Shown piece after piece: positions 35,786 through 48,622 of a stretch of 64,000 nucleotides of DNA. Both the position numbers and the translations under genes were made by a program. A model generated the notes under the pieces. The model made no database searches. It was not told the origin of the DNA and saw only the letters and a list, made by a program, of their open reading frames with translations. Position 1 is the first letter of the stretch, and the number at the start of each line of letters is the position of its first letter. Origin of the DNA: Desulfocarbo indianensis (GTDB lineage Bacteria > Desulfobacterota > Desulfarculia > Desulfarculales > Desulfarculaceae). The stretch lies in the NCBI GenBank assembly GCA_001184205.1, contig LBMP01000003.1, forward strand, positions 372,001 to 436,000, read 5' to 3'.

Positions 35786-36250
35786 ATGTCCAAGGCGGCG
35801 GAAAAAGAACAAGACGCCATAGCCAAACTCTGGGCCCGCTCCCGCAAGGAGCCGTTCAAGGACATCCTGGGCCTGGAGGTGCTGGAAATATCCCCCGGCT
35901 TCGCCAAGGTGGCCATGCGCTTTCAGCCGGAAATGCAAAATATCTTCGGCATGCTGCATGGCGGGGCCGTTTTCTCGCTCCTGGACGAGGCCTTCCAATT
36001 GGCCTGCAACGCCCATGGCGAGATCGCCGTGGCCTTGCAGCTCAACATCTACTACCTGGCGCCCGCCCAAATGGGGGCCCGGCTCATCGCCGAGGCCAAT
36101 GAATGCAACGCCACCCGCAAGACCGCCCTTTATGACGCCCTAGTCTACCAGGAAGAGGATGGAAAGCGTATCGCCACCGGCCAGGCCATGGCCTATCGTA
36201 AGGGCAAGCCCCTGCCCTTTGACGATGATGGTGAGCTAACAGTTTTTTGA
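35786..36250 (+). CDS. PaaI-type hotdog thioesterase
   Basis: This is a 154-residue acyl-CoA thioesterase of the hotdog fold. The motif NIFGMLHGGAVFSLLDEAFQ (about residues 51-70) is the PaaI/4HBT-like signature, with HGG and a catalytic Asp/Glu in the helix. A C-terminal acidic tail follows. ATG 35786 has AAGGAG five bases upstream. The gene ends in a bidirectional terminator whose stem includes the stop codon. The substrate is unknown; phenylacetyl or other aryl-CoA esters are typical. Confidence 0.9.
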   Translation: MSKAAEKEQDAIAKLWARSRKEPFKDILGLEVLEISPGFAKVAMRFQPEMQNIFGMLHGGAVFSLLDEAFQLACNAHGEIAVALQLNIYYLAPAQMGARLIAEANECNATRKTALYDALVYQEEDGKRIATGQAMAYRKGKPLPFDDDGELTVF

Positions 36251-36272
36251 AAAAGGCCTCCTGGCCTTTTTC
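36249..36272. terminator. Bidirectional rho-independent terminator
   Basis: GAAAAAGGCC (36249-36258) pairs with GGCCTTTTTC (36263-36272) around TCCT, with the stem starting at the stop codon of the thioesterase. U-rich ends form in both directions, so it can also serve the minus-strand sirtuin gene. Confidence 0.85.
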
Positions 36273-36276
36273 AATC

Positions 36277-36310
36277 CCAACTTGGCAAAAGCGTGGTTTT
36301 GCCAAGTTGG
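36277..36310. repeat. Perfect 14-bp inverted repeat at the edge of the dispersed element
   Basis: CCAACTTGGCAAAA (36277-36290) and TTTTGCCAAGTTGG (36297-36310) pair perfectly around GCGTGG. The right arm is also the left end of the dispersed repeat; the left arm is absent from the second copy of that repeat. Confidence 0.75.
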
Positions 36311-36394
36311 ACAATTTGCTTGTTTTTCAAAACCGCGCAAATTGGCGGGCCGTCCATGGCCCGCTTAGCAGGGTGTTTAACAACACCCTGCTAA
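36295..36394. repeat. Dispersed hairpin-rich element, copy 1
   Basis: These 100 bases recur at 48522-48622 with about 90% identity by eye. Within the unit there are three nested inverted repeats: CAATTTGC/GCAAATTG (36312-36319, 36337-36344), GCGGGCC/GGCCCGC (36345-36351, 36358-36364) and TTAGCAGGGTGTT/AACACCCTGCTAA (36365-36377, 36382-36394). It fills the gap between the thioesterase and sirtuin genes, and its right end provides the sirtuin stop codon. There is no coding capacity, so it resembles a REP/MITE-type element. Confidence 0.8.
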
Positions 36395-48521: not shown

Positions 48522-48622
48522 GGTTTTGCCAAGCTGGGCAATTTGCTTGTTTTTTCAAAACTGCGCAAATTGGCGGGCCGTCCATGGCCAGCCTAGCAGG
48601 GGGTTTTTCAACGCCCTGCTAA
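48522..48622. repeat. Dispersed hairpin-rich element, copy 2
   Basis: This is the second copy of the element at 36295-36394, in the same orientation, between the amidohydrolase and the EamA transporter genes. It keeps the CAATTTGC/GCAAATTG pair and the AGCAGGG/CCCTGCT stem, but the GCGGGCC/GGCCCGC stem and the loop of the last stem have changed (GGGGGTTTTTC against GGGTGTTTAAC), so it is a diverged copy. Confidence 0.8.

Follow-up and report, generated by a model that had tools for sequence, protein, structure and literature searches.

A five-hairpin MITE with several end types in Desulfocarbo indianensis and other Desulfobacterota

Introduction

What is the structured non-coding repeat that lies between two converging genes of Desulfocarbo indianensis, and how did it come to be there? 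The window, i.e. the whole stretch of 64,000 nucleotides analyzed here, carries a hotdog thioesterase gene (4HBT, Pfam PF03061; 35786..36250, plus strand) that is convergent with a sirtuin gene (SIR2, Pfam PF02146; 36391..37158, minus strand). An earlier model reading of the letters alone (the original prediction) had pointed to a non-coding repeat at 36295-36394 that is 90% identical to 48522-48622, and BLAST bears this out. By its length, terminal repeats, target duplications, copy number and empty sites the element is a MITE, and among the known miniature transposons it seems to represent a variant not described before. MITEs, whose length stays below about 300-600 bp, are usually viewed as decayed scraps of a single insertion sequence, bound to its ends and short-lived. 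In the present family it is the internal structure that outlives both sequence and ends, the stems being rewritten by paired changes while the loops stay.

Results

Structure and insertion of the window copy

The repeat noticed originally is the right two thirds of an element that starts 55 bp earlier. The complete copy (copy 1, with the type i ends described below) occupies 151 bp at 36240..36390 on the plus strand, and lies between direct CTAA repeats at 36236..36239 and 36391..36394. Since CTAA is not palindromic, this direct repeat is a target-site duplication, as the original prediction had advised looking for, and not a part of the inverted repeats; CTAA/CTAG duplications are also present at other copies. 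Alignments of other copies in the same genome span 36236 to 36394, the other full-length copies there are 81-93% identical, and a covariance model scores copy 1 at 134 bits. The element is non-coding and carries no transposase reading frame. Copy 2 (48522..48618, plus strand) is 5'-truncated: it starts in the 3' arm of hairpin B, reaches the right end and is followed by CTAA at 48619-48622; it is 90% identical to positions 56-155 of the 161-base BLAST query.

Where three nested inverted repeats had been proposed, the element has five hairpins one after another (A to E), all given here on the plus strand. The first four are defined by sequence, fold and covariation (helices 1 to 4): hairpin A (36247..36274; TTGAAAAAGGCC-TCCT-GGCCTTTTTCAA), bordered on both sides by A- and T-tracts in the window copy; hairpin B (36277..36310; loop GCGTGG); hairpin C (36312..36344); and hairpin D (36345..36364; GCGGGCC-GTCCAT-GGCCCGC), which has the most conserved loop. 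Hairpin E (36365..36394; TTAGCAGGGTGTT....AACACCCTGCTAA) is defined by sequence and fold. The terminal inverted repeats of the window-genome element are CAGGKTGTTGAAAAA, and the two outer hairpins each hold terminal repeat together with its reverse complement, hairpin A the inner part of the left repeat and hairpin E the entire right repeat plus the right CTAA. The fold of 36295-36394 has a z of -5.8 against shuffles, none of 200 shuffles being as good.

Insertion at this site is demonstrated by the target duplications and by orthologous junctions that lack the element. The last codons and the stop of the thioesterase (36248-36250) now lie within the element, which supplies that stop. When the window flanks are rejoined the gene reads GAG CTA ATC ATC TGA. 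The original prediction had the element providing the stop codon of the sirtuin gene instead; this TAG (the complement of 36391-36393) sits inside the right CTAA duplication and is unmoved on rejoining, so that only insertion at a gene 3' end, and not the identity of the gene that acquired an element stop, is upheld for the window copy. The convergent thioesterase-sirtuin pair occurs without the element in four genomes of genus g4 (G010, G012, G017, G018) and in Dethiosulfatarculus sandiegensis (G002), and the thioesterase orthologues terminate short of the element junction. Outside the element the copies have nothing in common, which excludes a paralogous duplication of the flanks.

Family size and distribution

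The large genomic family anticipated by the original prediction is present: BLAST places the element at 17 distinct sites of the genome it comes from, with nearly complete copies at 8, and a covariance model (R1, built from 41 copies) finds 13 copies there. Applied to 63 genomes of the class, with no more than 54 candidates scored per genome so that the counts are lower bounds, the model detected the element in 10 genomes, all Desulfarculales, in at least 344 copies altogether, with at least 24 in the single-contig genome G003 and some members in D. sandiegensis and in Desulfarculus groundwater assemblies. It found no match in class families outside the order Desulfarculales. Genus g4, represented by eight genomes (G004, G008, G010, G012, G014, G017, G018, G019), yielded zero copies even though its family includes heavily loaded genomes. 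Searching 395 genomes across the phylum added ten further genomes from four other families (best E-values 6e-11 to 2e-20), ruling out a family confined to Desulfarculales. These distant copies keep the A-B-C-D-E order with differing stem sequences, and in most of them ends like CAGGATGTTGAAAAAG go with CTAA or CTAG duplications.

Most phylum-wide copies measure 150-153 bp, type iv elements 159 bp and type iii elements mostly 207-211 bp. The hairpin order is fixed in every aligned full copy, and only the loops gain optional hairpins. One such extra hairpin, GGGGTCCCC-stem-GGGGTG, is found in the hairpin D loop at L099, L100, L103, L107, L143, L166 and L261 (in L261 in the hairpin B loop too), and spans different genomes and end types.

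Several further observations were made during these searches. In G005 the element stands twice in tandem (L076:1273-1531, two adjacent model matches), and in G003 two facing end motifs lie within 41 bp (C1:1210931-1210971; GAGGCTGCTGCACGGGGCA ... TGCCCCGTGCAGCAGCCTC), apparently a coreless solo hairpin that carries both terminal repeats. A cobalamin riboswitch (Rfam, 99 bits; L276:734-915) lies about 130 bases from one element copy. No copies were found in viral contigs. Two clostridial metagenome assemblies were set aside, having only the hairpin B motif in common and in a different context; likewise, the hairpin TTTGGCAAAAGCGTGGTTTTGCCACG in uncultured Clostridia (L147, L160, L164) stands in a different repeat context, and its likeness to hairpin B is taken as chance. 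Pattern matches resembling lone ends at L043 and L047 apparently fall in coding regions of histidine-kinase type, as read from the sequence, and are regarded as chance similarity.

Four kinds of ends around one core

Each kind of target duplication has its own terminal repeats around the homologous hairpin core. Type i (window genome, G020 and the distant families; ends CAGGNTGTTGAAAAA) uses a 4-bp YTAR target. Its duplications are CTAA/CTAA or CTAG/CTAG in the window genome and at 9 of 19 phylum-wide copies (exact at 10 of 19 including a CTAT pair; shuffled expectation 4.6), many being imperfect, and in 18 of these 19 the ends are complementary at 9-11 of 12 positions. Type ii (G002; ends TGCTGACAAAG / CAGGCTGTTGACAAA) duplicates a hairpin-like stretch: 9 of 13 copies lie between two copies of a 13-33 bp sequence (1.7% for shuffled pairs), mostly a hairpin resembling an intrinsic terminator, which makes them natural cases of whole-terminator duplication. 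Type iii (G003, G007, G011, G015; ends GAGRSTGCYGCACGG) has a 5-bp duplication that is exact at 25 of 46 unique elements or, counted per strand, at 49 of 82 versus 0.76 by shuffling. Type iv (G007; ends TACCAAnTTGCGATCAAA) has a TNA duplication, exact in 17 of 18; its end motif has 342 matches in G007, where it probably exists in many copies. Types iii and iv coexist in that genome.

Candidate transposase partners

Matches to three transposase Pfams (PF01609, PF13751 and PF05598) were limited to G002 and one PF05598 fragment in G007. PF01609 and PF13751 gave no match in the own genome, G003, G007, G011, G015 or G020, nor did PF05598 (DUF772) in the own genome (G000), G003, G011 or G020, and no DDE_Tnp_1, DDE_Tnp_1_6 or DUF772 genes were found in the 333 contigs of the window genome or in G003. 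As G003 is a single contig, its partner has been lost or is of another family. We found no intact autonomous partner, and an IS1182-type remnant with matching ends in G002 only. This remnant (L168), two parts of which match NCBIfam IS1182 (E 4e-36 and 5e-26), has ends CAGGCTGTTGACAAAGTCC and CAGATTGCTGACAAACC that match those of type ii, and it too lies between duplicate copies of a terminator hairpin. L175 is an IS1182/IS5-type gene with an internal stop, whose CAGGCTGTTGAAAAAG ends adjoin CTAG and are similar to type i. From these sequence matches, the partner of the window copy would presumably be an IS1182/IS5-type transposase. At L261:1769-2009 in G007 a fragment of an IS1182/IS5-type transposase gene has a type iv element within it or at its edge.

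Pairing and covariation

Among 41 aligned sequences 34 of 44 pairs have changed on both sides, and double-change cells number 272 versus 87 in shuffled alignments and 28-91 with the pairing slid, the pairs having been selected on the same alignment that was used for counting. G-U pairs are scarce. In fifteen lineage representatives they make up 13 of 681 pairs when the plus strand is folded and 11 of 677 for the minus strand, with folding energies that total -1070 (plus) and -1097 (minus) kcal/mol; the distant copies have 13 of 877 and 25 of 899 on the two strands. Departures from Watson-Crick pairing within copies comprise 26 G-T and 30 A-C. The hairpin D loop, RTCCAT, is nearly invariant, and RRCGYG in the hairpin B loop is kept in most Desulfarculales lineages.

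Discussion

Could the hairpins be kept for a role as RNA, or for ending transcripts? An RNA role, as a structured non-coding RNA or a regulatory element whose mobility is incidental, would fit the conserved RTCCAT and RRCGYG loops and the strong covariation. A selected transcribed RNA favors G-U pairs on its own strand, yet G-U stands at about 2% on either strand, the folding energies of the strands are nearly equal, and so are the G-T and A-C deviations. Such near-absence of G-U without strand bias indicates that the palindromes matter as DNA, either as selected hairpins or through copying from arm to arm; arm-to-arm copying alone is insufficient because the loops would not be kept. Searches of Rfam at gathering and loose thresholds gave nothing at any family's threshold (the best, YenS, at 34 of the 80 bits needed, is taken as chance), in line with the original prediction's failure to recognize the type, and the position relative to genes is not constant in type iii. 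We consider selection as RNA quite improbable. The placement of the window copy between convergent genes and the A- and T-tracts on either side of hairpin A would suit a bidirectional transcription terminator or mRNA 3' stabilizer kept for that function, but hairpin A lacks such tracts in G003-type elements, and in G002 the terminator pre-exists and then becomes duplicated. By a rough open-reading-frame method, type iii elements have 16 tandem, 6 divergent and 5 convergent pairs of neighbors; these mixed orientations, without bias to convergent or 3' sites, show no general rule of gene-3'-end targeting for type iii and give no hint of termination as a kept function, which leaves this explanation improbable.

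How the ends came to differ is a closer question. Gradual co-evolution within one transposase lineage, with no exchange of ends between systems, would account for the similar ends of types i and ii (TGTTGAAAAA / TGTTGACAAA) and for IS1182-related transposases. Against it, the ends of types iii and iv are unrelated and their duplications are 5 bp versus the 3-bp TNA around the same core, and both types are present in one genome, G007. As the length of a target duplication mirrors transposase geometry, an exchange of ends between systems is simpler than the gradual drift of one transposase; we hold drift to be a serious but unlikely alternative, and the core has probably been handed between several transposase systems. 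Spread by a REP-associated tyrosine transposase, as for REP/BIME-type elements, would agree with palindromic, extragenic repeats of high copy number. To our knowledge, however, Y1 transposition makes no target duplications, which are present here, and the TnpA_REP (RAYT) partner suggested by the original prediction is missing, there being no Y1 transposase gene (PF01797) in the own genome, G003 or G020; this origin is extremely improbable.

We thus favor, with considerable confidence, a non-autonomous MITE of about 150-210 bp with a five-hairpin body, moved in trans by DDE transposases that would act at its terminal repeats. Its body is a fixed run of five DNA hairpins with almost perfect pairing: A and E, on the outside, embed the terminal repeats, and B, C and D between them have conserved loops. 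The hairpins are presumably kept as DNA, the likeliest reason being that a folded single strand or a cruciform would present double-stranded ends. Because hairpins A and E hold the terminal repeat with its reverse complement, one strand on its own could fold to give double-stranded ends, and this would account for end hairpins that track the terminal repeat in each of the types. This single-strand route is nonetheless something we judge unlikely. Also speculative, and rather doubtful at present, is the thought that the element is a transposon satellite, in which the body itself is the conserved functional part: folding as single-stranded DNA, it would make both terminal repeats double-stranded for any transposase available, could recruit unrelated transposases through renewal of its end hairpins, and would thereby persist phylum-wide. 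Rewritten stems, loops that stay and four kinds of target duplication on one core together point to DNA hairpins that are either under selection or copied in concert within a non-coding parasite. The family offers a concrete system for studying the role of palindromes in small transposons.

Comparison with known systems

We found no published description of the element, and no paper on MITEs in Desulfarculus, in the open-access literature searched (subscription journals and ISfinder lying outside this scope). REP/BIME sequences with their RAYT (PMC2817692) are likewise extragenic palindromes in many copies, but the REP unit is a single short imperfect palindrome, whereas the present unit is five hairpins in 151 bp with terminal repeats and target duplications, in a genome without RAYT. 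The BOX elements of pneumococci (PMC3049150) are likewise interspersed, structured and modular, and they too have terminal repeats and target duplications. They differ in phylum and sequence and follow a boxA-boxB(n)-boxC plan with a variable number of boxB units; in our element there is no boxB-like tandem repetition but five fixed, different hairpins, with covariation and a near-absence of G-U.

IS1272 and TnSha1 of the IS1182 family target terminator hairpins (PMC4923244), as do the type ii elements of G002 and the IS1182-type remnant that shares their ends. Those insertions delete part of the hairpin without duplication, whereas here the hairpin is duplicated and the five-hairpin elements carry no transposase. 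Ends matching those of an IS1182-type gene are established for type ii in G002; for type i there is similarity only (L175). The closest parallel is with bacterial MITEs of IS origin such as Nezha, Chunjie, QMITEs and MITEAba12 (reviewed in PMC10969869), which are likewise under 300 bp, non-coding, bounded by terminal inverted repeats and target duplications, present in many copies and presumably mobilized in trans. What sets the present element apart from them is one core with at least four end/target types, built of five adjacent DNA hairpins that have been kept phylum-wide with double changes.
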